The translations under genes were made by a program, and so were the position numbers. The notes below the pieces were generated by a model. It had not been told where the DNA came from. It was given only the letters and a program-made list of their open reading frames with translations, and did no database searches. A stretch of DNA of 64,000 nucleotides from positions 558,001-622,000 of the forward strand of contig NZ_CP063989.1 of NCBI RefSeq assembly GCF_014595995.2, written 5' to 3'. Positions 923 through 17,072 of the stretch are shown one piece after another (position 1 is the first letter of the stretch; every line of letters begins with the position of its first letter). This DNA comes from Actinomyces respiraculi. GTDB taxonomy: Bacteria; Actinomycetota; Actinomycetes; Actinomycetales; Actinomycetaceae.

Positions 923-1879
923 ATGAGCCGTCTTCGTCGTCTTGGCGCTGCTGTCGCGTGCGCACTTCTCCTGACGCTGCCCGTCACCCAGGTGGCCGCG
1001 CAGCCCCTGTCGGCCACCGCGTCGGCCACCGCCTCCGCATCCCCCTCGGCCTCCGAGACGCCCGCTCCCGAGGCCGCTGACGCCTCCGTTCCCGTTGACG
1101 GGTGGCAGGAGGCGGACGGCCGATGGTTCTACCACGTCGAAGGCCGGGCCGTCTCGAGCCAGTGGGTGCAGGACGGTGACTTCTGGTACTACCTGCACGA
1201 CGGCGGTCAGATGGCCACCGGCTGGGTCAAGATCGGGGACTTCTGGTACTACCTGTACGACAACGGTCAGATGGCCACCGGCTGGGCGAAGATCGGTGAC
1301 TTCTGGTACTACCTGTACGACAACGGTCAGATGGCCACCGGCTGGGCGAAGATCGGTGACTTCTGGTACTACCTGCACGACAACGGCCAGATGGCCTGGA
1401 GGTGGATGGCGCAGGGCGGCACCTGGTACTACCTGCACGGTAACGGTCAGATGGCCACCGGCTGGGTCAAGGACGGCGACTTCTGGTACTACCTGTACGA
1501 CGGCGGCCACATGGCCACCGGCTGGCTGTCGCAGGGCGGCACCTGGTACTACCTGTACGGTAACGGCCAGATGGCCAGCGACCAGTGGGTCGGCTCCTAC
1601 TACCTCCAGTCAGACGGCTCGATGTCCTCGCCCTACGCGGTGACGGGGGTGTGGCTCCAGCTCGCCCAGTGCGAGTCGGGCAACAACCCCACGGCGAACA
1701 CGGGCAACGGCTACTACGGCATGTACCAGTTCTCCCTGTCCACCTGGCGTTCCGTGGGCGGTACCGGCTACCCCCACCAGGCGAGTGCCCAGGAGCAGAC
1801 CATGCGTGCCCAGATCCTTCAGGCCCGCTCTGGTTGGGGCCAGTGGGGAGCCTGCTCGGCGAGGCTCGGGCTGTACTAA
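923..1879 (+). CDS. Secreted Rpf-like transglycosylase with choline-binding-type repeats
   Basis: A 318-residue exported protein. The ATG at 923 is chosen because it follows an AGAAAGG ribosome site and opens a signal peptide (basic MSRLRRLG, hydrophobic core, Ala-x-Ala near residue 25). A Ser/Ala/Thr/Pro linker runs to about residue 58. Residues 60-222 hold eight 20-residue repeats of the type GDFWYYLYDNGQMATGW, very close to pneumococcal choline-binding modules, where the aromatic residues box the choline cation. Residues about 232-318 form a resuscitation-promoting-factor/transglycosylase-like domain: LAQCESGNN with the presumed catalytic glutamate, NTGNGYYGMYQFS, and a tryptophan-rich C-terminus. 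It would bind surface phosphocholine and cleave peptidoglycan. The phosphocholine genes lie at 9.8-14.4 kb. Binding to choline is inferred from repeat similarity. Confidence 0.85.
   Translation: MSRLRRLGAAVACALLLTLPVTQVAAQPLSATASATASASPSASETPAPEAADASVPVDGWQEADGRWFYHVEGRAVSSQWVQDGDFWYYLHDGGQMATGWVKIGDFWYYLYDNGQMATGWAKIGDFWYYLYDNGQMATGWAKIGDFWYYLHDNGQMAWRWMAQGGTWYYLHGNGQMATGWVKDGDFWYYLYDGGHMATGWLSQGGTWYYLYGNGQMASDQWVGSYYLQSDGSMSSPYAVTGVWLQLAQCESGNNPTANTGNGYYGMYQFSLSTWRSVGGTGYPHQASAQEQTMRAQILQARSGWGQWGACSARLGLY
1101..1588 (+). repeat. In-frame 60-bp tandem repeats encoding cell-wall-binding modules
   Basis: About eight 60-bp units inside the Rpf-like gene. The central copies (about 1220-1400) are almost identical at DNA level, which suggests recent duplication or ongoing copy-number change by recombination or slippage. 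Confidence 0.8.
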
Positions 1880-1885
1880 CCAGCG

Positions 1886-3181
1886 ATGGACGCTGAGGAC
1901 CAGAGCGGCCACGGTGCCGCCATGAGGACCTCCAGACGTCATCGCCTGCGCCCCCTCCCGATCCTGGCTGCCCTTCTCGCGCTGCTCGTCGGCGTCGGAT
2001 GGGCGCTGTCCTCCCCCCTGTCCCCGTCCCCCGACGACACTCTCCCGCTGGGGTACCACTGGGTCCGCCCCCTGCTCATCGGCCCCGACGCCGAGCTCGC
2101 GGCCGTGCTCATACGGATCCTCAATACCCTGCTGGGCGTCGTCCTCATCGCGTCCCTTCACACGCTGGCGCCACGGGATGAGCAGCGGGCGGTGCTGCTC
2201 GTGCCGCTGATCGCGTGGACCCCGATGGGGCTGTACCTCATCGCTTCGGACAACCCGACCTCCTGGGCGGTCGTCGGCCTCTACGCGTACAACGCCGGGA
2301 TGTACCTGGCCACCCGTGCGCAAGGACGCAGGCGCGTCGGATTGCTCGTCACCGGTGCGCTCGGCGCGCTCATGTGCATGGCCGCGCGCGACGACGTCGC
2401 CCTCTTCCTCCTCCTCGTCGGCATCGCACTGTTGCTCGCCGTGCGATGGACGCGAGGGGTGTGGCCCGAGCTCCTCATCACGGTGGCCTTCGGGGTCCTC
2501 GGGCTGCTGGAGATGCTCTCCTTTGGGGGCACGGAGACGATGCCCGGGGCAGCCCCCGACGGCACCGAGGGGGGCGTCCTCCATCGCCTCCTTATCGGCA
2601 TCATGACCATCCCGAAGTACATCGGCGGCTTCTGGGGGGTGCACTGGGGCCCTGGGAGGGGCGACGTCTCGCTGGACCCGCGCAGCCCCTACGTGCTCGT
2701 CATGCTCGCGGTTGGCGCTCTCATCCTCCTGGCCCTGCGCTCGGGCACGTGGCGCACGTGGCTGTCGACCTTGGTCCTCATCGGCACCGGAGCCCTCCTC
2801 CCCGTCGTCCTCTACGCAGGCGGGGTGTTCGAGCCGCTCGAGGCCTTCGAAGCGCGATACGTCCTGCCCCTGCTCGCTCCCGCGCTGCTCATGCTCCTGA
2901 TCGTCGACAAGGACGAGCCGGTGAGTCTCAGCCGCCCCCAGGCGATCTGGACCGGAGCCTGCGTCATCACCGCTCACGTCATCGCCCAGCAGGTGGTGCT
3001 CATGCACTACGTCAAGGGCGACCCGCAGTGGTCGGGGGACCTGCCCATCAGCCCGATGATGCTGCTGTTCATCACCTCGTGCGCCTTCGCCGTGCTGACT
3101 GCAGTCGTGCTCGTGAACGTCACGAGGCCCGCGCGTGACGGCAGGACGGCACGTGAGGGCATGGTCTCCGTCCTCACCTGA
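1886..3181 (+). CDS. DUF2142-type polytopic membrane protein, shortened paralogue
   Basis: A membrane protein of 431 residues (419 if the ATG at 1922 is used; neither start has a good ribosome site). It has roughly ten hydrophobic segments. It is clearly homologous along its length to the protein at 4688-6262: both share GVGWALSSPL/GIGWSVSSPL near the N-terminus, a LLIG segment, a GTE/GPEGGFLHRL-like loop, PKYIGGFWG, and EAFEARYVLPLLAP near the C-terminus. Right after SPDD it lacks the roughly 90-residue Cys-containing loop of its paralogue, so the first outward loop is almost gone. The DUF2142 family sits in surface-polysaccharide loci and resembles GT-C-type membrane enzymes; the reaction is unknown. 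It lies between the Rpf-like gene and rmlCD on the same strand. Confidence 0.7.
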   Translation: MDAEDQSGHGAAMRTSRRHRLRPLPILAALLALLVGVGWALSSPLSPSPDDTLPLGYHWVRPLLIGPDAELAAVLIRILNTLLGVVLIASLHTLAPRDEQRAVLLVPLIAWTPMGLYLIASDNPTSWAVVGLYAYNAGMYLATRAQGRRRVGLLVTGALGALMCMAARDDVALFLLLVGIALLLAVRWTRGVWPELLITVAFGVLGLLEMLSFGGTETMPGAAPDGTEGGVLHRLLIGIMTIPKYIGGFWGVHWGPGRGDVSLDPRSPYVLVMLAVGALILLALRSGTWRTWLSTLVLIGTGALLPVVLYAGGVFEPLEAFEARYVLPLLAPALLMLLIVDKDEPVSLSRPQAIWTGACVITAHVIAQQVVLMHYVKGDPQWSGDLPISPMMLLFITSCAFAVLTAVVLVNVTRPARDGRTAREGMVSVLT

Positions 3182-3257
3182 GTCACCGGAGCGGGCTAAA
3201 CTGCACAGTGCCGCAGCGCCCGCTCGCGGACACACAGAGCCTGAGGACGAGTACCAG

Positions 3258-4691
3258 ATGACCGAGTCCCCGAAGCCGCTAGGCGTGACGACGACCCCCA
3301 TCCCCGGGTTCCTGCGCCTCGACCTCACCGTTCACGGCGACAACCGGGGCTGGTTCAAGGAGAACTGGCAGCGCGAGAAGATGGTCGCCCTCGGTCTTCC
3401 GGACTTCGCGCCCGTGCAGAACAACATCTCCTTCAACGATGAGGTCGGTGTCACCCGCGGCATCCACGCCGAGCCCTGGGACAAGTTCGTCTCCGTCGCC
3501 ACCGGCAAGGTCTTCGGCGCCTGGGTGGACCTGCGTGAGGGCCCCTCCTTCGGGACCGTCTACACCACGGTCATCGACCCCTCCGTCGCCGTCTTCGTCC
3601 CCAAGGGCGTGGGCAACGCCTACCAGACCCTCGAGCCGGGCACCGCCTACACCTACCTCGTCAACGACCACTGGTCGCCGGACGCCCGCTACACCTTCCT
3701 CAACCTCGCCGACGAGACCGCTGCCGTGCCCTGGCCGATTCCGCTGGAGAGGGCGATCCTGTCCGACAAGGACCGCTCCCACCCCCGGGTGGCCGAGGTC
3801 ACTCCCTTCCCGGCTGCGGCGCACACCGGGCGGCGTGTACTCGTCACGGGCGCCAACGGACAGCTCGGGCGCGAGCTCATGAGGCAGCTGCCCGAGGCCG
3901 GGTTCACCGTCACCGGCGTCGACCTGCCCGATGTTGACATCGCCGACGCCACTCAGATGGCGGCCATCGACTGGTCGCGCTACGACGTCGTCGTCAACGC
4001 GGCCGCCTGGACCGCCGTCGACGCCTCCGAGACCGGCGAGGGACGCCCGGCCACCTGGCGCGCCAACGCCACCGGCCCCTCCGTCCTGGCCCGCATCGCC
4101 TCCGAGCACGGCCTGACACTCGTGCACATCTCGAGCGAGTACGTCTTCGACGGCACCATCGAGCCCCACACGGAGGACGAGCCCCCCAGCCCCCTGGGTG
4201 TCTACGGCCAGTCCAAGGCGGGGGGCGACGCCGCTGTCACCGCGGTGCCCAGGCACTACCTCGTGCGCACGAGCTGGGTGGTGGGCGACGGCAGGAACTT
4301 CGCCAAGACAATGGTGGGACTCGCCGCCAGGGGAGTGCGCCCGAGCGTCGTCGCCGACCAGACCGGTCGCCTCACCTTCACCACGGACCTGGTGGCGGGC
4401 ATCATCCACCTGCTCACCAGCGGCGCCGACTACGGCACGTACAACATCTCCGGTGAGGGCCCGCTCGTCTCCTGGTACGACGTCGCCACGCGCGTGTATG
4501 AGCTCGTCGGCCACAGCGCCGACGAGGTCACCGCCGTCACCACTTCCGAGTACTATGCCGGGCAGGCGGGCATCGCCCCGCGCCCCCTGAAGTCCGCGCT
4601 GGACCTGAGCCGGATCGCGGCGACCGGCTTCACCCCCGCCAACTCCATGGAGCGCCTGGATGCCTACGTGCGCTCCCTGACACAAGGATGA
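3258..4691 (+). CDS. rmlCD: Fused dTDP-4-dehydrorhamnose 3,5-epimerase / dTDP-4-dehydrorhamnose reductase
   Basis: One 477-residue protein joins the last two steps of dTDP-L-rhamnose synthesis. Residues 1 to about 190 are the RmlC cupin: FKENWQREKMVALGLPDF, NISFNDEVGVTRGIHAEPWDK with the catalytic histidine of the family's RGxH motif, and a VPKGVGNAYQ stretch. Residues about 193-477 are RmlD: the NAD(P)-binding VTGANGQLGREL, VVNAAAWTAVD, and the SSEYVFDG and YGQSKAGGD segments carrying the Tyr-x3-Lys pair. The ATG at 3258 follows a GAGGACGAG ribosome site and starts just before the RmlC domain. RmlA is encoded at 16.0-16.9 kb; RmlB is not in the window. The product supplies dTDP-rhamnose to the glycosyltransferases around it. 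Such fusions are known in other bacteria. Confidence 0.92.
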   Translation: MTESPKPLGVTTTPIPGFLRLDLTVHGDNRGWFKENWQREKMVALGLPDFAPVQNNISFNDEVGVTRGIHAEPWDKFVSVATGKVFGAWVDLREGPSFGTVYTTVIDPSVAVFVPKGVGNAYQTLEPGTAYTYLVNDHWSPDARYTFLNLADETAAVPWPIPLERAILSDKDRSHPRVAEVTPFPAAAHTGRRVLVTGANGQLGRELMRQLPEAGFTVTGVDLPDVDIADATQMAAIDWSRYDVVVNAAAWTAVDASETGEGRPATWRANATGPSVLARIASEHGLTLVHISSEYVFDGTIEPHTEDEPPSPLGVYGQSKAGGDAAVTAVPRHYLVRTSWVVGDGRNFAKTMVGLAARGVRPSVVADQTGRLTFTTDLVAGIIHLLTSGADYGTYNISGEGPLVSWYDVATRVYELVGHSADEVTAVTTSEYYAGQAGIAPRPLKSALDLSRIAATGFTPANSMERLDAYVRSLTQG

Positions 4692-6262
4692 GTGCAGGCT
4701 CCCCGGCTGGGGAACACGGTCCCACAAGTCGAAACGAGGAGCACGTGGAGCATGATGAGACTGGGCGCCGCAGTGTGTTAAGCGCCCGGAGGATGAGGAT
4801 CCCGACTCGGGGCTGGGTCGGCGGTCTTCTCGTCGTTCTGGCGCTGGTCGTCGGCATCGGATGGAGCGTCTCGTCGCCATTGGCCTCCTCTCCCGACGAC
4901 GACTACCACCTGGGGAGCATCTGGTGCCCGCGGCCCGTGGGACAGTCGTGCGAGACCTCGGTCGTCGACGGCGCCCCGGTGGTCAAGGTGCCCCGGGCCG
5001 TCGCCGACAGCTCGATGCGGTGCTTCGCCTTTAAGACGAACTCGGCCGGCTGCGCCATGGGCTACCGCGATGACGACCTCGTGTGGTCCACCCGCTACGA
5101 CGACGGCAACTACCCCACCGGCTTCTACCGCGTGCACCACCTGCTCATCGGTCAGGACGTCCAGACCTCCGCCCTGCTCATGCGCGGGCTCAACGTCGCC
5201 CTGTGCGTCGGCCTCGTCACCGCCCTGCTCCTCCTGGCGCGCCCCGTGCAGCGCCACCGCCTGGGCCTGGCGCTGCTGATCACCTGGAGCCCCATCGGGG
5301 TTTACTTCATCTCGTCCAACAACCCCTCCTCATGGGCCATCACCGGGGTCCTCGTTTACGCGACGGGCATGTACCTGGCGACGACATCCGAGGGGCGCCG
5401 GCGCGCCGGACTCATCGCCTGCGCCGTCGCTGGCGCTCTCATGTCCCTTGCCAGCCGCTACGACGCCTCCTTCTACCTCTTCGTCGTCGGGGTGGCGTTG
5501 CTTGTCGCGGTGAGATGGCGACGCGCCCTGTGGCCCGAGATGGTCCTCACCGCCGTCCTCGGCTTCCTCGGCGTGCGGGCCATGGTCGTCTCCGGTCACA
5601 CTGACGCCATTCCTGGGGTCGGCTCCACCGGGCCCGAGGGCGGCTTCCTGCACCGCCTCATCGTCGGTATCGAGACGGCGCCGAAGTACGTCGGCGGGTT
5701 CTGGGGCCTGGGTTGGGCACCCGGCTGGGGCGATGTGCCGCTGTGGGCGCGCGCCCCCTACATCCTCGCCATCCTCGCCGCGGGCGGCGTCATCCTGTTG
5801 GCCGTGACCTCGGGCTCGTGGCGCAAGTGGCTGGGTGTGGGCGTCATGCTCGGCGCGATCGTCGGCCTGCCGGCCGTCTTCTACGCCGCCGGCGTCTTCC
5901 GCGAGCTCGAGGCCTATCAGGCGCGTTACGTGCTGCCGCTGTTCGCCCCCCTCCTCTTCCTCCTGCTGACGGTTGACGAGGATGAGCCGCTGCGCCTCAC
6001 GCGCGCGCAGACGACCTGGCTGGGTCTGAGCGTCGTCGGGTGTCACGTGCTCTCCCACCACACGGTTCTCATGCGTTTTGTCGTCGGCGTGACGCCCGAC
6101 TGGGTCCTCAACCTCGACGCCGCACCGCAGTGGTGGTGGGACGTGCCGGTGACCCCCATGACCGTATGGGCCGTCACCTCCTGCGCCTTCCTCGCCCTCA
6201 CCGTCGCGGTGCTGCGCTCGGTCGAGGACCGCTGCGCCTGCCGCCGTGAGGAGGACGTATGA
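4688..6262 (+). CDS. DUF2142-type polytopic membrane protein, full-length paralogue
   Basis: A 524-residue membrane protein, translationally coupled to rmlCD: its ATG overlaps the preceding stop as ATGA. After a first membrane segment (GGLLVVLALVVGIGW) come SSPLASSPDDDYHLGSIW and a roughly 90-residue outward loop with four cysteines (IWCPRP, QSCETS, MRCFAF, AGCAMG), probably two disulfides outside the membrane. About nine to ten further hydrophobic segments follow. The acidic SPDD near the first loop recalls the catalytic-loop position of GT-C enzymes, so a lipid-linked sugar transferase is possible but unproven. The next gene, a polyprenyl-phosphate-type GT2, overlaps by four bases, so the two may act in sequence. 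Internal start at 4793 is possible. Confidence 0.75.
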   Translation: MSAGSPAGEHGPTSRNEEHVEHDETGRRSVLSARRMRIPTRGWVGGLLVVLALVVGIGWSVSSPLASSPDDDYHLGSIWCPRPVGQSCETSVVDGAPVVKVPRAVADSSMRCFAFKTNSAGCAMGYRDDDLVWSTRYDDGNYPTGFYRVHHLLIGQDVQTSALLMRGLNVALCVGLVTALLLLARPVQRHRLGLALLITWSPIGVYFISSNNPSSWAITGVLVYATGMYLATTSEGRRRAGLIACAVAGALMSLASRYDASFYLFVVGVALLVAVRWRRALWPEMVLTAVLGFLGVRAMVVSGHTDAIPGVGSTGPEGGFLHRLIVGIETAPKYVGGFWGLGWAPGWGDVPLWARAPYILAILAAGGVILLAVTSGSWRKWLGVGVMLGAIVGLPAVFYAAGVFRELEAYQARYVLPLFAPLLFLLLTVDEDEPLRLTRAQTTWLGLSVVGCHVLSHHTVLMRFVVGVTPDWVLNLDAAPQWWWDVPVTPMTVWAVTSCAFLALTVAVLRSVEDRCACRREEDV

Positions 6263-6999
6263 CCCCCTCTCTGCTCGTCCTCATCCCCGCCTGGAACGAG
6301 GAGCAGGTCATCTCCGGCGTGCTGGCGGAGATCATGAGCGTCGTCGGGCAGGGGGTCGACGTCGTCGTCATCTCAGACGGGTCCACCGACGCCACTGCCC
6401 GCATTGCCCGCGACGCCGGTGCCACCGTCCTCGATCTGCCCGTCAACCTCGGCGTCGGTGGTGCCATGCGGGCCGGCTACCTCTACGCGCTGCGCCACGA
6501 CTACGACTACGCCGTCCAGGTCGACGCCGACGGGCAGCACGATCCTGCCGAGATCGCCTCGCTGCTCGCCGCCGCCCGCCAGCAGGACGCCGACGTCGTC
6601 ATCGGGGCGCGCTTCGCCGGCAAGGGTGACTACGAGGTGCACGGGCCGCGTCGCTGGGCGATGGCCGTTCTGTCCGTTGTCCTGTCGCGCGTGTGCCGCA
6701 CCCGCCTGAGCGACACGACCTCGGGCTTCAAGCTCACGAGTCGGCGCGCCATCGCGCTCTTCGCACGTGAGTTCCCCGCCGAGTACCTCGGCGACACGGT
6801 CGAGGCCCTCGTCATCGCTGCCCGCGGCGGGCTGAAGGTCGTCCAGGTGCCCGTCGAGATGAGGCCCCGTGCCGGTGGCGCCCCCTCCCACAACCCGTTC
6901 AAGGCCGCGAAGTTTCTCCTGCGTGCCTTCATGGCACTGGGCATCGCGCTCACCCGCCCACGCACCGCGCCGGCCTCTTCCAGCGAGGAGATGGCATGA
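6259..6999 (+). CDS. Family 2 glycosyltransferase, polyprenyl-phosphate type
   Basis: A 246-residue soluble GT-A enzyme starting at an ATGA overlap with the upstream membrane protein and preceded by a GAGGAGG ribosome site. The N-terminus LLVLIPAWNEEQVI is the classic GT2 nucleotide-binding strand; VVISDGSTDAT and QVDADGQHDP hold the Asp residues and the D-x-D metal site; the DTTSGFKLTSRRA segment is typical of dolichyl/undecaprenyl-phosphate mannose- or glucose-transferases. There are no C-terminal membrane helices, unlike GtrB; the adjacent small membrane protein DUF2304 could anchor or partner it. Expected product: a polyprenyl-phosphate sugar used by an integral-membrane transferase. Donor sugar unknown. 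Confidence 0.88.
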   Translation: MTPSLLVLIPAWNEEQVISGVLAEIMSVVGQGVDVVVISDGSTDATARIARDAGATVLDLPVNLGVGGAMRAGYLYALRHDYDYAVQVDADGQHDPAEIASLLAAARQQDADVVIGARFAGKGDYEVHGPRRWAMAVLSVVLSRVCRTRLSDTTSGFKLTSRRAIALFAREFPAEYLGDTVEALVIAARGGLKVVQVPVEMRPRAGGAPSHNPFKAAKFLLRAFMALGIALTRPRTAPASSSEEMA

Positions 7000-7391
7000 A
7001 CTCGACCTACGTTCTTGGTCTGCTCTTCGGCCTCATCGTCCTGGTCTCGGTGTTTCTCAAGATGCGCAACTCCGGGATGAAGGAGGAGTATGCGACCTGG
7101 TGGATCGTCATCGCGATCGGCAGCGTCGTCTTCTCCGTCATCCCGGGGGCTCTCAAGGCCGTCTCGACGGTGTTGGGGGTTCAGGTGCCCCTCAACCTCG
7201 GCTTCTTCGTCGGCGCTATCATCCTGCTGCTGCTCTCGCTGCGCTTCAGCGTCGACCTGTCACGGTCCTCGGAGGACCGGCGGCGGCTCGCGGAGGAGAT
7301 CGCGCTCCTGCGCGCCGAGGTGGATGCGCTTCGCTCCGAGATGCAGGTGCTGGGGGCACAGCAGCAGCGTGAGGACCCGCCCTCCGAGTGA
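6996..7391 (+). CDS. DUF2304 small membrane protein
   Basis: A 131-residue protein with three hydrophobic segments (about residues 3-20, 32-52 and 66-84) and a charged C-terminal helix (SSEDRRRLAEEIALLRAEVDALRSE) that looks like a coiled coil. DUF2304 proteins commonly lie beside polyprenyl-phosphate GT2 genes, exactly as here, with an ATGA overlap. Inferred role: membrane partner of that transferase. It is the last gene of the plus-strand run; the next genes converge on it. Confidence 0.85.
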   Translation: MNSTYVLGLLFGLIVLVSVFLKMRNSGMKEEYATWWIVIAIGSVVFSVIPGALKAVSTVLGVQVPLNLGFFVGAIILLLLSLRFSVDLSRSSEDRRRLAEEIALLRAEVDALRSEMQVLGAQQQREDPPSE

Positions 7392-7394
7392 GGC

Positions 7395-7417
7395 GAGCCC
7401 ACGCTTGTGTAGGGCTC
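7395..7417. terminator. Possible bidirectional terminator between convergent genes
   Basis: A GAGCCC (7395-7400) and GGGCTC (7412-7417) inverted repeat fills the 29-base gap between two convergent stop codons. No T-run is present; position is the main support. Confidence 0.4.
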
Positions 7418-7420
7418 ATG

Positions 7421-8530
7421 TCAGCGCCGGTGCCAGTCGCGCACGGCCTGCTCAGCGATCTGCGCGTATTGCTGGGCACGCACCGGCCAGGTCCACGGGG
7501 TGATGAGCTCCGGCGGGGCGGCCGGGGCGGGGTGCTCCAGCACCGTGCGCAGCGAGCGCACGAGGCTTTCGGTGCTCCGCTCATCGCACACGGTGACAGG
7601 GGCACCCTGCTCCCTGAGCAACTGGGCTCCGGGGACGACGAAGGTGACGACGCGCCCCTGGACCGCGATCGACTCCAGTAGTGTCGTCTGGAAGCCCTCG
7701 GACAGCACCGTGGGGTTGACGAGGGTCGCGCCGCGCAACGCGGCCTGGACCTCGTGCTGGGGCACCCGGCCGCGAATCGCGACGACCTCGTCGAGCCTGA
7801 GCTGTGTGGCTCTCTCGCGTGCGAGCGCGAGCTCGGCCCCATCGCCCAGCACCTCGCCATCCACGGCGAGGCCGTCGGCACGCAACCGGGCCAGGGCCTC
7901 GAGGAAGGTGTCCCACCCCTTGCCCGCCACCATCCGGCCGACGAAGACGAGATGCCCCGGGCGGTCCGTTGTGGGCCCGGCAGGAGGCGGGGTGATGGCG
8001 TTGTAGAACACCTCGGCCTCGCGCGCCCCGAGCCTGGTCGCGAAGTCGGCAGCCTCGGGGGAGACTCCGAGGACCTTCTGAGCGTGTGAGAGGACGTAGC
8101 GTCCGGCCGTGAGGTCCACGATCCTCGAGCCCAGCGAGATGACGGGGGAGGGGCTTGCGACGAAACCACTGCCGTGCTCGGTGTGGATCACCGGCAGGTC
8201 GGCCCGGTGGGCGGCGAGCAGCCCGACGAGGCTCATGGGGAAGAAACGGGTGTGGGTGGACACGACGTCGATGCGCTGGCGGCGCAGATAGCGCGTGAGG
8301 GCGCGGGTGGCGCCGACGCTGGGGAAGCTGATGACATCGGCGACGGGCAGGTGGGAGCGTCCGGTGAGCACGCGCACGCCGTCGTCGTCGCGCGAGCCCG
8401 GCTCGGGGGCGATGGTGAGGACGTGGACCCGGTGACCCAGGTCGGTCAGGGAGCGGGCGAGGTTGGCGGCGTGCTGCTCGAGGCCGCCCATGCGCGGGGG
8501 GTAGTTGTTCGAGATGATCGCGATCCTCAT
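7421..8530 (-). CDS. Glycosyltransferase family 4
   Basis: A 369-residue GT-B enzyme. The ATG at 8530 is chosen because MRIAIISNNYPPRMGGLEQH is the typical GT4 start; the frame is open far upstream but only as antisense of the flippase. Visible parts: the glycine-rich PPRMGGLEQHAANL acceptor-side loop, HTEHGSGF, FVGRMVAGKGWDTFLEAL opening the second Rossmann domain, and EGFQTTLLE with the GT4 pair of glutamates seven residues apart. It probably adds a sugar to the repeat unit exported by the flippase encoded next to it on the same strand (26 bases upstream). Donor and acceptor are unknown. Confidence 0.88.
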   Translation of the reverse strand: MRIAIISNNYPPRMGGLEQHAANLARSLTDLGHRVHVLTIAPEPGSRDDDGVRVLTGRSHLPVADVISFPSVGATRALTRYLRRQRIDVVSTHTRFFPMSLVGLLAAHRADLPVIHTEHGSGFVASPSPVISLGSRIVDLTAGRYVLSHAQKVLGVSPEAADFATRLGAREAEVFYNAITPPPAGPTTDRPGHLVFVGRMVAGKGWDTFLEALARLRADGLAVDGEVLGDGAELALARERATQLRLDEVVAIRGRVPQHEVQAALRGATLVNPTVLSEGFQTTLLESIAVQGRVVTFVVPGAQLLREQGAPVTVCDERSTESLVRSLRTVLEHPAPAAPPELITPWTWPVRAQQYAQIAEQAVRDWHRR

Positions 8531-8556
8531 GGCGTGCTGCTCCTCCCGGTGGCTGC

Positions 8557-9834
8557 TCAGTGCTCGTGCGACGTCGTCGCCCGCGGGTCCCGGTCCCGGG
8601 CGGTAGCGTGCGAGACGACGATACCCGCAGCGAAGCACAGGGCGAGGACGGCCATGGACCCGGTGAAGGCCGTCGCGGCCCCCAGCAGCCCCAGCGGGGG
8701 CACGAGGATCCGGCACAGCACCCCAGCCGCGACCGCGCCGACGACGTAGCCGACGAGGACGAGCCTCTGAAGGCGCATGGTGCTCAGCGCGTAGTAGAGG
8801 ATGACCCCGCCCGCGTTGAGCGCGCCACCGGCGATGAGCACCATGAGCTCGAGCCGCAGCCCCGACACGTCCGTGGAGTACACGAGATCCAGGACGGGCG
8901 GGCCTGCGACGTAGGCGGCGGCCGCGACCACCAACGAGGCCAGGAACGTAGTCACCAGGCCTCGGCGGATCGCCGTGAGGAAACCCTCGTCGTCGCCCGC
9001 GGCCCAGCGGGTCGCCATGGGCGTCAGCAGCGGGCGGAACACCAGGAGGGACAGGAGGTTGATGGCCGACGCCGGCATGAAGATGACGGTGAAGTATCCC
9101 TGCGCCACCTCGGCGGCCTCGCCCATGGAGGTATCGATCGCCCAGCGCGGGGCGGTGAAGATGAACATGTTGAGGAAGGAAGCCAGGAACAGAGGCAGGC
9201 ACTCGGCGAGCAGCTGCAGGACTGCGCGGGCGTCCCACGACGGTCGCAGCGAGTACAGGGACCGGGCCGGTGGGACGTAGGCGAGCACCATGACCACCAG
9301 TGACGCGACCAGGGTCGTGACCGTGGAGACGAGCAGGTGGCCCGTGAGCACGACCATGAGGCAGAAGACGATCATCGTCGCCATGGTGCGCACGAAACAG
9401 GCGCGCCCACCCAGGTCGAGGCGTCCGGCCCGCTGGAACTCGCTGTAGAAGACGTCCTCGAAGGCGTCGAAGACGCGCACAGAGGCGATGAGGATCATGA
9501 GGATGGCGGCCGAGGCGCTGTTACCGGTGACGAGTGCGTGCACGACGATGGCGGCGATCATGAGCACGACGGTGACGATCCGGGCGGCCAGGTAGGTGCC
9601 GAAGGAGAAACGTCGGCGCACGTCGGTGACGTGGTACGTGCGCACCTCGTACATGCCCAGGGTCTGGAACAACTGGCCGTTGGCGATGGCCAGGGCGTAG
9701 ATCCCCACCGCCTGGATGTCGATGACGTGGCTGACGACCGCCGTCGTCAGGACGACGAAGACCGAGGCGGCCAGGGACGCGGCGGCATTCCACACGTAGT
9801 CCCGGCGCAGCTGGGAGCCCTCGCTCGAGGCCAC
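8557..9834 (-). CDS. Wzx-like polysaccharide flippase (MATE/PST superfamily)
   Basis: A 425-residue integral membrane protein with about twelve hydrophobic segments, starting at a GTG four bases after the upstream licD stop. The N-terminal DYVWNAAASLAASVFVVLTT followed by evenly spaced helices is typical of polysaccharide-unit flippases. It would move lipid-linked oligosaccharides across the membrane. It lies in a minus-strand run licCA-DMT-licD-licD-flippase-glycosyltransferase, so its cargo may be a phosphocholine-decorated repeat unit; that is inference from the order. No polymerase (Wzy) is recognised in the run. Confidence 0.82.
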   Translation of the reverse strand: MASSEGSQLRRDYVWNAAASLAASVFVVLTTAVVSHVIDIQAVGIYALAIANGQLFQTLGMYEVRTYHVTDVRRRFSFGTYLAARIVTVVLMIAAIVVHALVTGNSASAAILMILIASVRVFDAFEDVFYSEFQRAGRLDLGGRACFVRTMATMIVFCLMVVLTGHLLVSTVTTLVASLVVMVLAYVPPARSLYSLRPSWDARAVLQLLAECLPLFLASFLNMFIFTAPRWAIDTSMGEAAEVAQGYFTVIFMPASAINLLSLLVFRPLLTPMATRWAAGDDEGFLTAIRRGLVTTFLASLVVAAAAYVAGPPVLDLVYSTDVSGLRLELMVLIAGGALNAGGVILYYALSTMRLQRLVLVGYVVGAVAAGVLCRILVPPLGLLGAATAFTGSMAVLALCFAAGIVVSHATARDRDPRATTSHEH

Positions 9835-9838
9835 GCGC

Positions 9839-10705
9839 TCAGGCCCTGACGTCGTGCGGACCGAAGTCCACGTGGTGGGGCTGGTGGTTCTCCCGCTCCT
9901 CGACCGGGGGAAGGGTCATGTAGTCGCCGTACCCGCGGGTCAGGACCGCGTCGTAACGGCGGGGAATCTTCACCGTGATGTCCTCGAAGGGCCCGTCGAC
10001 GGCTGGGAAGAGCTCGTCGTAGCGCACCGACCAGCGTCGCGGGTCGCGGGTCGCGTAGTCACCCAGCAGGGGGGAGTCCTCGCCCTCGTGGCTGCGGGCG
10101 GCGCGCTCCCACCGGCTCTGGAGGGCTCGCGGGCTCACCCGGGCGGCCCGCAGCCCCCAGTGGACGGTGTGCATGACGGCGCCTGCCAGCTGACCCACGG
10201 GTGCGGGTAGGGACACCGACGGCCGCGGCGTCCCCCGCAGGAAGAGCAGGCGCCCCCACAGCCACGTGCGACGGTTCTGGCGGCGGTAGGCGCTCATCGC
10301 CGTGGGCATGACGTCCAGGGGGAAGACGTCGACGCCGATGGGCATGCGGAACGTGCGGTCCTTGGCGGCCTCGGAGATGAACTCGGTGCCCCTGAGTCCC
10401 AGCACGGCGAAGGGCGTGGGGTAGTCCGGGCTCGTACGAGGATCGAGCAGGACGAAGTCCTCGCCCAGGTGCTCGGGCGCCTCGCGCAGAAGACGCTCGT
10501 AGTCCGCGCGCGGCATGCACACGTCGGCGTCGTCGTCCCAGGGGATGAAGCCCTGGTGGCGCACCGCGCCGATGGCCGTGCCGCCGTAGACGACGTAGGA
10601 CAGCCCCAGCTGCTCGCACACCCGGTGCAGCTCCGCCAGCACGACGGTCGTGGCGCGCTGCACGGCGCGTAGAAGAGCGGGGTCCTTGTAGGGGGTGAAG
10701 GCCAT
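9839..10705 (-). CDS. licD: LicD-family phosphocholine (phosphoryl) transferase, copy 2
   Basis: A 288-residue protein with the LicD signature: CEQLGLSYVVYGGTAIGAVR then HQGFIPWDDDADVCMPR around residues 32-68, the Asp-rich metal site of this nucleotidyltransferase-fold family. LicD enzymes transfer phosphocholine from CDP-choline to a sugar of teichoic acid or other glycan. The ATG at 10705 follows GCAGGAAC. It is clearly related to the next licD (10721-11593), with the same motif block and a similar C-terminus (YGDYMTLPP versus YGSYMELPP), so they probably arose by duplication and may decorate two positions, as the two LicD proteins of pneumococcus do. Substrate is inferred from neighbours. 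Confidence 0.88.
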   Translation of the reverse strand: MAFTPYKDPALLRAVQRATTVVLAELHRVCEQLGLSYVVYGGTAIGAVRHQGFIPWDDDADVCMPRADYERLLREAPEHLGEDFVLLDPRTSPDYPTPFAVLGLRGTEFISEAAKDRTFRMPIGVDVFPLDVMPTAMSAYRRQNRRTWLWGRLLFLRGTPRPSVSLPAPVGQLAGAVMHTVHWGLRAARVSPRALQSRWERAARSHEGEDSPLLGDYATRDPRRWSVRYDELFPAVDGPFEDITVKIPRRYDAVLTRGYGDYMTLPPVEERENHQPHHVDFGPHDVRA

Positions 10706-10720
10706 GGCAAGTTCCTGCGG

Positions 10721-11593
10721 TCAGGGGAGCGTGGTCTCGTAGGGGCCGAAGTCCACGAGGAAGGGCTTGTGGTTGCGGCGCTTGTCCGGCGGCGGCAGCT
10801 CCATGTAGCTGCCGTAGCCGCGCGTGAGCAGCACGTCGTACTCGCGCGGCAGCATGACCGTGATGTCCTCGAAGGGGACGTCGCGGGTGGGGAAGAGCTC
10901 GCTGCGGGTGACCACCCAGTTGTGGGGGTCGCGCATGGTGAAGTCGGCCATCCGCTCCGCCCGGGGGTCCTCGTAGCGGCGCACGGTGCGCTCCCAGCGG
11001 GATTGGAGGAAGCGCGGCGTGACGTGGGCCAGGCGCATCGCCCAGTGGGCGGCCGTCGTCGCCGTGTAGATCGCCGCGCGGGCGACCCCGTCGATCCCCA
11101 CGAGGTAGGGGCGGGGGGTGCCCTGGAGGAACAGGAGACGGCCCCACAGCCACGAGCGGCGGCTCATCGAGCGGAAGGCGGCCTCGTCGTCGGGGATCGC
11201 ATCGACGGGCAGGATGTCGAGGAACATCGGCATCCGGTAGCGCGAGCCCTTGGCGAACTCCGGCACGAGGAGCGTGCCCTTGAGAACCATCTTGGTAAAC
11301 ATGAAGGGGAAGTGCGCCACCGTGCGGGTGTTGTGCAGGTCGTACTCCTCGCCCAGCAGCGCCGGTGCCTCGAGCAGGAAGCGCTCGTAGTCGGTGCGCG
11401 TCAGAAGGACGTCGGCGTCGTCGTCCCAGGGGATGAAGCCCTGGTGGCGCACCGCGCCGATGGCCGTGCCGCCGTAGACGGCGTACTCGATGCCCAGCTC
11501 GCGGCACACCCGGTCGAACTCGGCCAGGATGCGGGTGAGCAGGACGTGTATCCGGTCGAGCATCTGCTGGTCGGCAGTGGCGTCAGGCGTCAT
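10721..11593 (-). CDS. licD: LicD-family phosphocholine (phosphoryl) transferase, copy 1
   Basis: A 290-residue protein with CRELGIEYAVYGGTAIGAVR and HQGFIPWDDDADVLLTR, identical in most core positions to its downstream neighbour. The family uses these acidic residues to bind the metal and the CDP-alcohol donor. No signal peptide or membrane helix, so it acts in the cytoplasm on a lipid-linked precursor. It sits 15 bases upstream of the second licD and 57 bases downstream of the LicB-like permease; licCA, encoded first, would make its donor CDP-choline. The LicD fold is also used with other CDP-alcohols (ribitol, glycerol), so choline specificity is inferred from the LicA-like kinase. Confidence 0.9.
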   Translation of the reverse strand: MTPDATADQQMLDRIHVLLTRILAEFDRVCRELGIEYAVYGGTAIGAVRHQGFIPWDDDADVLLTRTDYERFLLEAPALLGEEYDLHNTRTVAHFPFMFTKMVLKGTLLVPEFAKGSRYRMPMFLDILPVDAIPDDEAAFRSMSRRSWLWGRLLFLQGTPRPYLVGIDGVARAAIYTATTAAHWAMRLAHVTPRFLQSRWERTVRRYEDPRAERMADFTMRDPHNWVVTRSELFPTRDVPFEDITVMLPREYDVLLTRGYGSYMELPPPDKRRNHKPFLVDFGPYETTLP

Positions 11594-11650
11594 TCGTCGT
11601 TCCCCTCGGCAGGCGGCTGCGCCGGCCTCGCCGACGCAGCCGCCATCGTC

Positions 11651-12634
11651 TCACAGCGCGTCGGCGGTTCCGACCGAGGTTGGCTGCGCCCCCGCCCCGT
11701 CGGGCGGCGTGCGGCGCAGCAGTACGAGGTCGCTCCAGTCGGCGGTCGCCGCCAGGATGGTGCCGACCAGGACGACGAGGCAGCCCACGACCTGCAGGGG
11801 GGTGGGGACCGTGCCCTGCAGGACGAGGGCGAAGAGCACCGCCCAGGCCGAGTAGGAGATGTTGAGGGCCATGCCGCGCGAGGCGCCGATCGTGCTGATC
11901 GCCTTGTAGTAGAAGAGGTAGGAGGCGGTGCCCGCCAGGGCGGCCAGTACCACGAGCCCGGTGGCGGGCGTCAGCACCGCCCTCCCGGTGAAGCCGAGGA
12001 CGCCGGCGAGCGGGGCCACGACGAGCAGGTAGGCGGTGGCGGAGGTGGTCTGCCGGATGTGCAGGGCGGTCTCGTTGTCGACCGTGTCCTCGCGCATGCC
12101 CCAGGCGAGGATGACGGCCTCCGAGCCCCAGCCGATGACGCAGGCCAGGGCCGCGAGCACGCCGACCACCGCGGAGCCGCCCTCAACGGCGCCGGTCGTC
12201 CCCCAGCCGATCATGATGATGGCCCCCAGAGCCCCGAGCAGGGCGAGGACCTGGCGTGGGCGCATCCGCTCACCCAGCAGCACGAAGGCCAGGAGCGTGC
12301 CGACGGCCGGGTAGAAGGTGGAGATGATCGCCGTGTAGCCCGGGCCGATGTTGTTGATGGCGATGAGGTAGCCGGTCATCCCCACGGGACCGCCCAGCAG
12401 TGCGGCTCCCATGACGGCGCGGCCCGAGCGGGTGCGCAGCGCGGCGAGCGTGTCACCCAGGCGGCCACGGATGCCCATGTAGATGAGCAGGACGAGGGCA
12501 CATGCGAGGTCGTGCAGGAGGGCGGAGGCGAGCGGAGCCTCGGAGGCGCCCAGGTAGGGCGCCAGGAGGACGGCGATGCCCAGGATGACGGTGTCAAGGC
12601 CCCACAGGGCCCCGGAGAAGATGCCGTAGCGCAT
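11651..12634 (-). CDS. DMT/EamA-family permease, LicB-like (choline uptake)
   Basis: A 327-residue membrane protein with about ten hydrophobic segments arranged as two EamA repeats. It starts MRYGIFSGALWGLDTVILG, six bases after the stop of the licCA-type gene, so the two are surely co-transcribed. LicB choline permeases of Haemophilus and pneumococcus belong to this superfamily and lie beside licA and licC. The placement makes a choline (or precursor) importer likely; sequence alone only shows a drug/metabolite-type transporter. The C-terminal tail is soluble and lacks features. Confidence 0.8.
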   Translation of the reverse strand: MRYGIFSGALWGLDTVILGIAVLLAPYLGASEAPLASALLHDLACALVLLIYMGIRGRLGDTLAALRTRSGRAVMGAALLGGPVGMTGYLIAINNIGPGYTAIISTFYPAVGTLLAFVLLGERMRPRQVLALLGALGAIIMIGWGTTGAVEGGSAVVGVLAALACVIGWGSEAVILAWGMREDTVDNETALHIRQTTSATAYLLVVAPLAGVLGFTGRAVLTPATGLVVLAALAGTASYLFYYKAISTIGASRGMALNISYSAWAVLFALVLQGTVPTPLQVVGCLVVLVGTILAATADWSDLVLLRRTPPDGAGAQPTSVGTADAL

Positions 12635-12640
12635 GGGGGT

Positions 12641-14425
12641 TCAGTCCTCGTTCTCGTACTGTGCAAGCAGGGTGTCGATGTCGTCGACGGCGTAGCGGTA
12701 GTAGGTGAGAAGCCACTCGCCGACGTCGTCGCCCTCGGCCTCCTTGAGCAGGGCCCACACGTACCAGCACCAGCCGGCGAGGACGACGTAAGCCCAGAAG
12801 TGGCGGCGCTCGACGGCGGTCGGCACGCGCTTGAAGTAGTACTCCAGCGCCTGCTCGGCGAGCGCCTCGTCCATTTCGGCGGTGCACACGACCATCGTGC
12901 CGAAGTCGGCGGCGACGTCGGACATGCCGGCGTACTCCCAGTCGATGAGGTCGATGTGTCCGTCCTGGGCGACGAGGAAGTTCGGGGGGAAGAAGTCGTT
13001 GTGGCTGGGGACCCGGGGGAAGCCGTCGGCGTCGGCGTGTGCCTTCAGACGCAGGACCTTCTCGCGCAGCTCGTGGTATCCGGGCACTTCGATCGGGCCG
13101 TGGTCGGAGAGCAGGGCCTCGTAGCGCAGCCCCTCCTCGACGAAGTCGAAGGACCGGGTCATCTCGGCCCCGGCGTCGTGCAGGTGACGGCTCAGGCGCA
13201 TCGCCTTGCGCAGCTCGTCGGGGATCGTGACGTCAAGGTTGCGCGAGCCCGGCACGAAGCGGGAGATCTTCCACCCCTTGTCGACGTCGCCGTCGACGAA
13301 CGTGCGGTCCACGCCCGCGTCACGGGCCAGGGTCAGTGCCTCGAACTCGGCGTGGCGGTCCACCATCTTCTCCGTGCCTGCGCCCGGGTGGCGGTAGACG
13401 TACTCGTCGTCGCCGACGCTGAAGTGGCAGGACAGGTTGGTGATGCCCTGCTTGAGCGGGTAGAAGTCGCTGACGTCGTTCGGGTCGCAGCCGAGGGTCA
13501 GGGCGATGTGCGTGAAGACCTCCGAGTCGAGGTTCTCCATGAAGCCGGGGTCGAAGGCGCGCAGCTCGTCGAGGGAGTCGAACTCGTTGATGACGCCCTC
13601 GGGGTAGGGGCGCACCACCATGTCGAGCTCCTTGACGTGGTCGAGGTAGATCGACTCCCACAGCAGCGGGATGGTCTCGGGACGGTGATAGACCTTTTCG
13701 AGCACCTGGTTGAAGCGGGTGGAGAAGGCGCGGTCGAAGTAGACGTGGCCGAGCATGACCAAGGTGTCGGCGCCGCCGACGGTGGCACCGGTGATGCGGC
13801 CTGCGGGGCCGGTCTGGATGCACCACTCCTCGGTGGGGCCGGCGATGTACTGGGCCGAGTAGTAGGCCTGGTACACGTAGGGCTCAAAGGGGTTGGTGGT
13901 GAAGTAGTCGTCCGAGGAGCACACGTAGGTGTTGGCGAGCCGGTCGCGCACGAGCCACAGGGAGCCGTTGTTGTTACGCGAGGCGTACTCGCGGTTGACG
14001 ACGATGTCCACCCCGTACTTCTCGATGAGGTAGAAGAAGTACTCCTTCTTGTATCCGACGACGACGGTGACGTCGGTGATACCCGCGGCGTGCAGCTGCT
14101 CGATCTGGCGTTCGATGAGGACCTCGCCGCGCACGCGCAGGGTCCCCTTGGGGCGCTCGTAGGAGATCGGGGCGAAGCGGCTGGACAGGCCGGCGGCCAT
14201 GATGACCGCGTTGTCGACCTTGTAGGGGGTCAGGGCCTCCAGGCCGGCGGGGGTCAGGGAGCGGTCGGCGATCAGTCCCGTGGTCTCGATCCTGCGCACG
14301 TGGGTGTTGACCGTACCCAGGGACAGGCCGGTGGCCTGAGCGAGATCGCGCTGGGTCAGCGGTCCGGTCGCGGCGCGCATCGCGTTGAGGATGTGGAACT
14401 GGGGCTCGGTGAGGGGGGCTGCCAT
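12641..14425 (-). CDS. licCA: Three-module winged-helix / LicC-type cytidylyltransferase / LicA-type choline kinase
   Basis: A 594-residue fusion. Residues 1-68 are a MarR-like winged helix (LTEPQFHILNAMRAA, then TQRDLAQATGLSLGTVNTHV as recognition helix). Residues about 71-300 are a nucleotidyltransferase: AVIMAAGLSSRFAPIS with the glycine loop, RPKGTL, and a CSSDDYF metal site, matching LicC-type CTP:phosphocholine cytidylyltransferases. Residues about 320-594 are a LicA/choline-kinase fold with the catalytic SHNDFFPPNF at about 474 and the metal-binding LIDWEYAG at about 493. One protein would thus phosphorylate choline and activate it to CDP-choline, feeding the two LicD enzymes. The ATG at 14425 is preferred: it has GGAG eight bases upstream and begins the helix domain; the frame runs on to 14518 without any domain. 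The regulatory module may sense pathway state or repress its own operon. Confidence 0.88.
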   Translation of the reverse strand: MAAPLTEPQFHILNAMRAATGPLTQRDLAQATGLSLGTVNTHVRRIETTGLIADRSLTPAGLEALTPYKVDNAVIMAAGLSSRFAPISYERPKGTLRVRGEVLIERQIEQLHAAGITDVTVVVGYKKEYFFYLIEKYGVDIVVNREYASRNNNGSLWLVRDRLANTYVCSSDDYFTTNPFEPYVYQAYYSAQYIAGPTEEWCIQTGPAGRITGATVGGADTLVMLGHVYFDRAFSTRFNQVLEKVYHRPETIPLLWESIYLDHVKELDMVVRPYPEGVINEFDSLDELRAFDPGFMENLDSEVFTHIALTLGCDPNDVSDFYPLKQGITNLSCHFSVGDDEYVYRHPGAGTEKMVDRHAEFEALTLARDAGVDRTFVDGDVDKGWKISRFVPGSRNLDVTIPDELRKAMRLSRHLHDAGAEMTRSFDFVEEGLRYEALLSDHGPIEVPGYHELREKVLRLKAHADADGFPRVPSHNDFFPPNFLVAQDGHIDLIDWEYAGMSDVAADFGTMVVCTAEMDEALAEQALEYYFKRVPTAVERRHFWAYVVLAGWCWYVWALLKEAEGDDVGEWLLTYYRYAVDDIDTLLAQYENED

Positions 14426-14546: not shown

Positions 14547-15839
14547 CTACGCCAGCATGCCCAGGGGGATGACGGCCACCCCGTCCGGGCGCCGGTAGGC
14601 GCCGGGGCCCGGCGTGATCACCACCCGATCGACGAGGCGGTCGCCGAGTTCCTCCTTGAGCCAGTTCAGGTGGCGGACATCGCGGTCGTCGACCGTGTGT
14701 GCGAGCTTCACCTCGCAGGCGATGACCTGACCGTCGTAGCGCTCCACGATGAGGTCGACCTCGTGCTCGCCGCCGCGCGTGCGCAGGTGGAACACCTGCG
14801 CCTCACAGGACGGGGCCGCGGCGCGAAGGCTCAACGTGGCGAGAGACTCGAAGAGCCGACCGAACACCTCTGCGGTCCCCGCCCTGCCGCTGAGGAGGAC
14901 GTCCTCGCTCGCTCCGACCAGGTACGCCGCTAGACCGGGATCGCACAGCTGGTGCTTGTCGCCCTTCGTGAGCCTGGTGAGGGGTGTGAAGGCCGGGAGC
15001 CACGCTGGGACGGGGTCGAGGACCCACAGCGCGGAGAGCAGCTCGCGGTAGGCGTTGGTCGTGGAGCGGCTCGGCTTGTCCGTCTGTGAGGGGGTCGCGG
15101 CGTCAAGGATCGTCGAGTAGGTCGCCGTTGTCGACGAGGCGGCGGCGTAGGCGCGCATCCACGACCTCATGGCCGCGGGATGGCGCACGGTCGTCCCCAG
15201 CTCGGGTATGTCGTGGTCGATGATCCGCATGACGTACCCCTCGAGGGCGGTGCGCCGCCACCGCGGCGCCAGCGAGGTGATCGCCGGAAAACCGCTTGCG
15301 CAGATGTGTCGGGCGTAGTCGGCGGCGCTCAGCGAGCAGGTGCCGGAGATCGTGGCGGTTCCGGTGAAGAGGTCCGCGAGGCTGATCGACGGCGAGGTGT
15401 CGGCGCGCTCGGCCAGGCTGAGCGGGCGCATGCGCAAGGAGATGATCCTGCCCGCGCCCGAGTGGGTGTCTGAGGACGTCGTCGGACTGGCGCTGCCCGT
15501 GAGGACGAACCGGGTGGGGGTGTGCTCGTCAACGAGGCGGCGTACGGCGTCCCATACCGGTGGGTACTTCTGCCACTCGTCGACGCACAGGCGTGAGGCG
15601 CTGAGCAGCTGGGATCGCGTGTCCATGGCGACGATGTCGTGCGTGTCGGGGGCGTCGAGGCGCAGGACGCGGTCGACGTGACGTGAGGCCGTCTCCGTCT
15701 TGCCGACCCCTTTCGCGCCGTCGATCGCCGCCGCGGGCAGGTGAGTGAGGATCTCCTTGAGCTCGATGTCGACGTAGCGCGTGAGGTAGCCGCTCGACTT
15801 GTCCGCTGGCTTACGGCTGGACGGGGGGTCTGTCAGCAC
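14547..15839 (-). CDS. AAA ATPase with C-terminal DUF4143 (ATP-binding protein)
   Basis: A 430-residue protein from the GTG at 15839. The N-terminal ATPase has a Walker A loop AAIDGAKGVGKTETA, a Walker B-like RLCVDEWQ and FVLTGSAS (sensor-like). The C-terminal DUF4143 part ends in GGEHEVDLIVERYDGQVIAC then EVKLA, a pattern like the PD-(D/E)xK nuclease core (E-x-D ... E-x-K). Function of this widespread family is unknown; members are often isolated accessory genes. An ATG at 15902 would add 21 residues, but that stretch is a 23-bp tandem repeat whose period is not a multiple of three, so it is probably non-coding; the GTG has GAGAGG nine bases upstream. It is flanked by lic and rml genes but seems unrelated to them. 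Confidence 0.85.
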   Translation of the reverse strand: MLTDPPSSRKPADKSSGYLTRYVDIELKEILTHLPAAAIDGAKGVGKTETASRHVDRVLRLDAPDTHDIVAMDTRSQLLSASRLCVDEWQKYPPVWDAVRRLVDEHTPTRFVLTGSASPTTSSDTHSGAGRIISLRMRPLSLAERADTSPSISLADLFTGTATISGTCSLSAADYARHICASGFPAITSLAPRWRRTALEGYVMRIIDHDIPELGTTVRHPAAMRSWMRAYAAASSTTATYSTILDAATPSQTDKPSRSTTNAYRELLSALWVLDPVPAWLPAFTPLTRLTKGDKHQLCDPGLAAYLVGASEDVLLSGRAGTAEVFGRLFESLATLSLRAAAPSCEAQVFHLRTRGGEHEVDLIVERYDGQVIACEVKLAHTVDDRDVRHLNWLKEELGDRLVDRVVITPGPGAYRRPDGVAVIPLGMLA

Positions 15840-15863
15840 GGATGTTCGCCTCTCGCTCGCGAC

Positions 15864-15932
15864 ACCTTCTACCGGTCGTCCTGCCGAGACTCTACTGTAC
15901 ATCCTGCCGAACTTCTGCCGGTCATCCTGCCG
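15864..15932. repeat. Three tandem copies of a 23-bp repeat
   Basis: Units 15864-15886, 15887-15909 and 15910-15932 abut exactly. On the minus strand each begins CGGCAGGA and continues with a variable half. They lie directly upstream of the DUF4143 ATPase, so they could be regulatory sites or slippage products. Thirteen bases of the last unit (15920-15932) recur at 16994-17006, and the join 15901-15916 recurs with one mismatch at 39462-39477. Confidence 0.85.
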
Positions 15933-16893: not shown

Positions 16894-16905
16894 GAGCACA
16901 GTGTC

Positions 16906-16923
16906 CCCGAAGAGCCCTTCGGG
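16906..16923 (-). promoter_or_regulatory. Perfect hairpin just upstream of rmlA start
   Basis: CCCGAAG (16906-16912) pairs with CTTCGGG (16917-16923) around a four-base loop. In the rmlA transcript this stem would end about 12 bases before the start codon, close enough to affect ribosome access. It could equally be a remnant without function. Confidence 0.35.
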
Positions 16924-17072
16924 TGTGGGAGGAATCGGGCGCGTGGCGCGCTCACGACGACGGCGGTTCACGAGCAGGTGCCGGGCGTCCACTGGTCATC
17001 CTGCCGCCAGCCCCGCCGTCCCCACGCCCCCGGCGCCCGGGCGAGGGCCACAGGCAGGCTACGGTTCGGCGT

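Follow-up and report, generated by a model that had tools for sequence, protein, structure and literature searches.

Do the enzymes that would place phosphocholine on a bacterial surface and the secreted hydrolases that carry choline-binding repeats (CBR) belong to one system in Actinomyces, or do their genes merely lie side by side? The question is raised by a window of 64,000 nucleotides, the whole stretch of DNA analysed here (positions 558001-622000 of the 2.91 Mb single-contig genome of Actinomyces respiraculi), in which a run of lic genes stands near a gene for a secreted protein that joins CBR to an Rpf domain. We propose, with a probability of roughly 0.8, that the lic genes and this CBR-Rpf protein act as writer and reader of phosphocholine on a wall glycan, and sequence comparison makes it very likely that CBR read the cell's own phosphocholine. 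An earlier note on this DNA had described one minus-strand run with two LicD proteins, a LicB-like permease, a LicC-LicA fusion, a flippase and glycosyltransferases and, about 8 kb from the licD genes, a secreted protein with eight repeats and an Rpf-like domain. All of these genes are present and the measured distance is 8.0 kb; the protein has a signal-peptide-like start followed by seven WYYL units, one WFYH unit and a domain that Pfam matches as Rpf. Chance proximity of the lic genes and the reader was considered and rejected.

That the writer genes are true Lic homologues, as the note had held, is borne out by solved structures. The LicC part of the fusion matches 1jyk (1.3e-38), its LicA part matches 4r77 (4.2e-28) and the permease matches the solved LicB 7b0k (E 3.6e-33), all three of which we take to be pneumococcal structures. 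Both LicD proteins exceed the curated Pfam cut-off (1.4e-35 and 4.6e-36), and with them homologues of the full Lic-1 set, LicA plus LicC, LicB and LicD, are all found. The CBR-Rpf protein is matched by Choline_bind_3 (3.6e-29; 100.9 bits vs a cut-off of 27), Choline_bind_1 (2.9e-23) and Transglycosylas, the Rpf domain (3.1e-23), and Pfam matches of this strength are, judged as sequence matches, not due to chance. Among solved structures, the repeats best match 2bib, 6jyx, 7pl2, 2vyu and 2v04, five choline-binding proteins of pneumococcus. The Rpf part matches the RpfB structure 1xsf (2.6e-16), and its Transglycosylas domain has the conserved Cys-Glu pair of the family (CESG), the Glu of which is catalytic in Rpf proteins. 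The eight units exceed the three repeats given as the minimum for a choline-binding protein in a passage of PMC5817068. An AlphaFold model of the protein has, in the repeat region, a hairpin about every 20 residues at low confidence (mean pLDDT 55), and this poor model was excluded from fold searching.

If the repeats read the cell's own mark, their distribution should follow that of the writers. Across 49 Actinomyces genomes, LicD was found in 31 and licCA, the gene of the LicC-LicA fusion, in the same 31 (fragmented in G005), and CBR occurred in 27 of these 31 genomes vs none of the 18 without lic; the genomes with LicD and without CBR are G009, G010, G041 and G047. Kinship was corrected for with single-gene trees. 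On an rpoB tree of 48 genomes, from which G037 was left out as it had no rpoB match, lic changes eight times and CBR nine times, and supported branches provide seven independent contrasts in lic; CBR differed in the same direction in six and in the opposite direction in none in 187 of 200 random pairings, and in five and none in the remainder (median p 0.031, range 0.031-0.0625; up to 0.125 on a quicker rpoB tree). The pattern extends to the family, where 200 genomes (37 of them Actinomyces) divide into 50 with CBR and LicD, 4 with CBR only, 23 with LicD only and 123 with neither, such that LicD is present in 50 of the 54 genomes with CBR. These counts indicate that the writers often occur without these readers and that the readers rarely occur without the writers. 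The earlier note had called for this survey and had named repeats common in species without lic as the outcome that would refute its reading. The survey did not refute it: CBR proved to depend on lic in both genus and family, being found in 0 of 18 lic-less Actinomyces genomes and in 4 of 127 LicD-less family genomes.

The Rpf protein is one of three CBR proteins found in this genome. A second, which supplies the strongest evidence for the coupling, is an autolysin with Amidase_2, CBR and glucosaminidase domains; its open reading frame of 1,101 codons lies outside the window, upstream of the Rpf gene at a distance of 13.5 kb. The third is a 321-codon frame at 2.29 Mb (L152 4774-5736, minus strand), over 1 Mb from lic, with an N-terminus that has no Pfam match. 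The amidase part of the autolysin has an orthologue in 46 of the 49 Actinomyces genomes (none was found in G009, G013 and G017), and its C-terminal anchor consists of CBR in 23 of 28 lic genomes vs 0 of 18 lic-less genomes (Fisher p 2.4e-8, uncorrected for kinship). In the 18 lic-less genomes the anchors are FG-GAP-like GDWDGNG repeats in nine (broken off by a frame change in G015 and G034), LGFP repeats in six, and none or unreadable in three (cut by contig ends in G001 and G018, none in G032). Repeat classes were assigned with simple patterns and by eye and profiles were run on examples only, among which LGFP is securely matched (Pfam 6e-49 and 1.3e-52) and FG-GAP lies under its cut-off. The exchange is seen in G026, which has lic and a CBR anchor, and G011, which has no lic and an LGFP anchor: these are sisters on the amidase tree with 81% identity in the amidase part, and between them the enzyme was kept and the anchor replaced.

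The same exchange recurs outside the genus. Amidase matches at E <= 1e-20 are present in 124 of the 200 family genomes, 88 of them outside Actinomyces, and we examined 39 of these 88, namely all 19 matches in genus g9 together with LicD genomes and lic-less congeners. A CBR anchor was found in 11 of 17 LicD genomes, two of them assigned by eye (G198, which runs into a contig end, and G205, with one pattern match), vs 0 of 22 LicD-less genomes, five of which have anchors cut by a contig end (G170, G194, G195, G203 and G209). The 17 comprise 11 genomes with LicD and CBR, all 11 of which have the CBR anchor, and 6 with LicD only, none of which has it. Over all relatives examined the amidase anchor is CBR in 34 of 45 LicD genomes vs 0 of 40 LicD-less genomes. 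Each of genera g9, g18, g24 and g32 holds both states in the expected direction, and these four taken with four Actinomyces contrasts give eight in the same and none in the opposite direction (sign test p 0.008, assuming the genera are separate clades). Two genomes deserve separate mention. G005 has licCA matches in fragments only (C3 61804-62772), one LicD, few CBR and an amidase without an anchor, and its sister G032 is without lic; G005 is possibly a phosphocholine system in course of loss. In G008 the amidase is without a glucosaminidase domain, and a separate secreted protein (L293, on C19) has CBR followed by a part that by eye resembles the glucosaminidase of the autolysin.

A number of observations weigh against the coupling of writer and reader. 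Among the 23 family genomes with LicD and without CBR, at least 14 have near full-length LicCA; in the 21 of these outside Actinomyces, licCA is near full-length in 12, weak or partial in seven and absent in two. The amidase is anchored by something other than CBR in 5 of 28 lic Actinomyces genomes (LGFP in G002 and G047, FG-GAP-like in G010 and G041, none in G005) and in 6 of 17 LicD genomes outside the genus, and contig ends truncate 7 of the 40 lic-less anchors. Taken alone, the amidase gives six contrasts on the rpoB tree, mostly four in the same direction, none opposite and two without difference (p 0.125), and four on the tree of the amidase part, mostly three, none and one (p 0.25). Linkage is a genuine confounder for the amidase: a stretch of about 30 kb in this genome holds autolysin, Rpf reader and lic, some 22 kb separate the amidase from lic, and in many relatives too the two lie close together, such that one recombination could move both. 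Writer and reader might then be mere neighbours on an exchangeable surface-polysaccharide island, gained and lost together by linkage. We consider this unlikely because unlinked CBR genes are also missing without lic: no CBR match of any kind was found in the 18 lic-less Actinomyces genomes, though one CBR gene here is more than 1 Mb from lic, and the sister pair G026/G011 keeps the catalytic half and differs only in the anchor.

Two further points against the coupling concern the ligand. The repeats resemble those of toxins and glucansucrases, with which they share a superfamily (solved matches from rank 6 on are toxins and lysozymes, with glucansucrases last), and four family genomes (G172, G187, G206 and G210) have CBR without a LicD or licCA match. 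The repeats could thus bind some other ligand, such as a glucan or a host or dental glycan, with lic serving immune mimicry or other proteins. In all four genomes, which belong to one related genus, the protein concerned is one orthologous BNR sialidase with CBR (L200 3268-5703, minus strand; L201 1210-3636, L202 1183-3597 and L203 1179-3569, plus strand). It is the only case of CBR without writers that was seen, and the amidases of the same four genomes carry LGFP-type repeats. With choline-binding proteins as the best solved matches, and with repeats this rare among the 127 LicD-less family genomes, we regard another ligand as distinctly unlikely.

Phosphocholine reading thus remains our preferred account, and the amidase-glucosaminidase autolysin is likely its widely shared, core reader in the family. 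The earlier note had the organism dock an Rpf enzyme on a phosphocholine-decorated glycan. That reading is supported in part, by Lic homology, choline-binding repeat matches and dependence on lic, with decoration and docking as predictions. It needs correction on the Rpf enzyme: the fusion was found in only 2 of 49 genomes, the amidase autolysin is the reader that is widely shared, and Rpf as core reader was rejected. When one repeat and the Rpf domain together served as query, a full-length match was obtained, among the 49, only in this genome and its sister G036 (Actinomyces sp. AC-20-1, with the orthologue on contig NZ_JACJVC010000002.1). The weak matches of G008 and G037 that reach into the Rpf half of the query are CBR proteins without an Rpf domain, no CBR were found in the Rpf frames of 28 further genomes, and a second Rpf protein of this genome carries none. 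A scan of named genomes (84,980 species), which was read with a repeat pattern and by eye and has only close relatives in reach, returned 43 loci and no third case of the fusion. CBR and Rpf are united only in L157 (Actinomyces sp. AC-20-1), L198 and L199 owe their matches to the repeats, and the matched frames of the other 40 lack CBR, with the reservation that some repeats, as in L198, escaped the first pattern. The Rpf reader has the look of a recent, lineage-specific addition.

Among Rpf-protein relatives no choline-binding domain was found in the 120 listed of 1648, which carry PF07501, PF03990, PF01476 or no second Pfam domain; in neither of two such searches do the 120 listed include the window's CBR-Rpf protein or its sister, and further CBR-Rpf proteins may well exist. 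The best relative listed, the metagenomic P0121 (367 residues), has the linker PYAVTGVW in common with the window protein, is 82% identical to it over the Rpf part and has FG-GAP-like repeats where the window protein has CBR, and anchor exchange therefore seems to have reached a second enzyme, the Rpf protein. As a separate observation, Macrococcoides proteins at L192, L193 and L197 have an Rpf-like domain that shares 67-69% identity with its Actinomyces counterpart, with LysM-like N-termini by eye in L192 and L193; movement of the domain between phyla is possible.

In the mechanism that we propose, choline would be imported by LicB and activated to CDP-choline by LicA and LicC within the fusion enzyme, the two LicD proteins would put phosphocholine on a lipid-linked wall glycan, and the marked glycan would be flipped by the MOP flippase and exported. 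Secreted hydrolases would then hold the phosphocholine mark via their repeats, the amidase-glucosaminidase acting as general autolysin and the Rpf enzyme cutting peptidoglycan locally, as a muralytic factor, and the amidase anchor would be swapped, being CBR when lic is present and LGFP or FG-GAP-like repeats when it is absent. Gene content places the lic run within a rhamnose and polysaccharide locus, and the Rml, RgpF and glycosyltransferase genes around it make a rhamnose-containing wall polysaccharide, lipid-linked on the inside, the likely target. Two RgpF-type proteins, an ABC2/Wzt_C transporter and further glycosyltransferases lie upstream of the window, and the presence of two export routes, MOP flippase and ABC transporter, leaves more than one candidate glycan. 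The product of LicCA and LicD could also be a phosphocholine lipid or some other membrane compound and no wall mark at all, as an NCBIfam diacylglycerol cholinephosphotransferase model that weakly matches both LicD proteins (64 and 60 bits vs a cut-off of 225) might suggest; with lic adjoining flippase, glycosyltransferase and rhamnose genes, and 17 of the 30 genus loci having an RmlA or RmlC-RmlD match, partial in one case, at most about 1.5 kb from licCA, we find this very unlikely. The flippase itself gave no Pfam match and no PDB sequence match at E <= 1, in a PDB set that was not checked for TacF. Its structure, modelled at pLDDT 86, shows the MOP fold, with the lipid III flippase WzxE as best match (TM 0.72) and MurJ at TM 0.73; its homologues (120 listed of 452) are mostly unnamed, those named by NCBI being Actinomyces 'lipopolysaccharide biosynthesis protein' entries.

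Wall enzymes that are anchored through choline are best known from pneumococcus and related species, and in Streptococcus pneumoniae a lic1/lic2 pathway operates with the choline-binding proteins LytA, LytB and Pce. The window resembles that system in its LicA, LicB and LicC homologues, two LicD proteins, adjacent MOP-fold flippase and hydrolases on CBR. It differs in three respects: a winged helix precedes the fused LicC and LicA, lic is flanked by genes for rhamnose, RgpF and ABC export, and one reader has an actinobacterial Rpf domain. Like RpfB, RpfC and RpfE, this reader has the Rpf catalytic domain with CESG; unlike the 120 relatives listed, it is anchored by CBR. The pneumococcal phage lysozymes Cpl-1 and Cpl-7 are a pair of related enzymes whose repeats bind choline or other wall components, but they are phage lysins, whereas here the anchor of a chromosomal autolysin tracks lic. 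Actinomyces was already known to have Lic-1 genes, and a relative to have choline-binding proteins. Parts of PMC10434233 report Lic-1 genes and antibody-detected phosphocholine in Actinomyces viscosus and A. gerencseriae, the same enzymes as in our genomes with the epitope seen by antibody only, and 'choline-binding' has 0 occurrences in its main text. A passage of PMC6166536 describes choline-binding proteins of Actinomyces odontolyticus XH001 with expression raised with the epibiont TM7x; they are comparable to those here, but that passage contains no link to lic and no anchor exchange. Choline-binding repeats in some Actinobacteria are noted in a section of PMC5817068, TacF is covered in part of PMC13385700, and the main text of the S. 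odontolytica essential-gene paper PMC12369343 is without choline or licD. Among titles and abstract openings of the open-licence literature, no report of a CBR-Rpf protein or of a lic-linked anchor exchange was found.

Anchor exchange serves as a natural experiment: across several genera it links CBR to lic and predicts which species bear the mark, and it makes the so far unassigned phosphocholine epitopes of oral actinomycetes directly testable. If our reading is true, an Rpf growth factor would be under a surface mark common to oral streptococci. A wider idea, which we hold tentatively and think rather unlikely in full, is that Actinomycetaceae use phosphocholine as a wall address that can be exchanged, for which autolysin and Rpf factor are refitted with CBR, or with LGFP or FG-GAP-like repeats on its loss, and that these enzymes could also dock on oral streptococci, neighbours from another phylum that share the mark.

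Table 1. Features of the locus, in positions of the window.
Feature	Position	Strand	Basis or remark
Secreted CBR-Rpf protein, proposed phosphocholine reader	923..1879	+	318 residues; Pfam and solved-structure matches
Eight CBR and a degenerate ninth	1103..1612	+	Residues 61-230 of the CBR-Rpf protein
Rpf (Transglycosylas) domain, CESG motif	1646..1855	+	Pfam, structure match
DUF2142 membrane protein	1886..3181	+	Pfam
RmlC-RmlD fusion (dTDP-rhamnose synthesis)	3135..4691	+	Open reading frame limits as listed; start codon provisional
DUF2142 membrane protein (second)	4688..6262	+	Pfam
GT2 glycosyltransferase	6259..6999	+	Pfam
DUF2304 membrane protein	6996..7391	+	Pfam
GT4 glycosyltransferase	7421..8518	-	Pfam
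MOP-fold flippase, TacF-like by neighbourhood and fold only	8557..9834	-	Structure model
LicD, predicted phosphocholine transferase	9839..10705	-	Pfam LicD 1.4e-35
LicD, predicted phosphocholine transferase	10721..11593	-	Pfam LicD 4.6e-36
EamA/LicB-type choline permease, predicted	11651..12634	-	Solved LicB 7b0k, E 3.6e-33
Winged helix-LicC-LicA fusion, predicted CTP:phosphocholine cytidylyltransferase and choline kinase	12641..14425	-	1jyk 1.3e-38, 4r77 4.2e-28
AAA_14/DUF4143 ATPase, between licCA and rmlA	14547..15902	-	Pfam
RmlA-like nucleotidyl transferase (dTDP-rhamnose synthesis)	16021..16992	-	Name inferred from Pfam NTP_transferase and locus

Between the reader and the lic run, five plus-strand genes (1886-7391) encode the two DUF2142 proteins, the RmlC-RmlD fusion, the GT2 glycosyltransferase and the DUF2304 protein. 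The N-terminal winged-helix domain of the LicC-LicA fusion, identified by Pfam, is of MarR type and falls inside the aligned region in most genus copies, and the fusion is possibly a self-regulating choline enzyme. The AAA_14/DUF4143 ATPase is probably not part of the lic system. In the sister genome G036 (locus L045) an RmlA match directly follows licCA, vs the ATPase gene that intervenes here.

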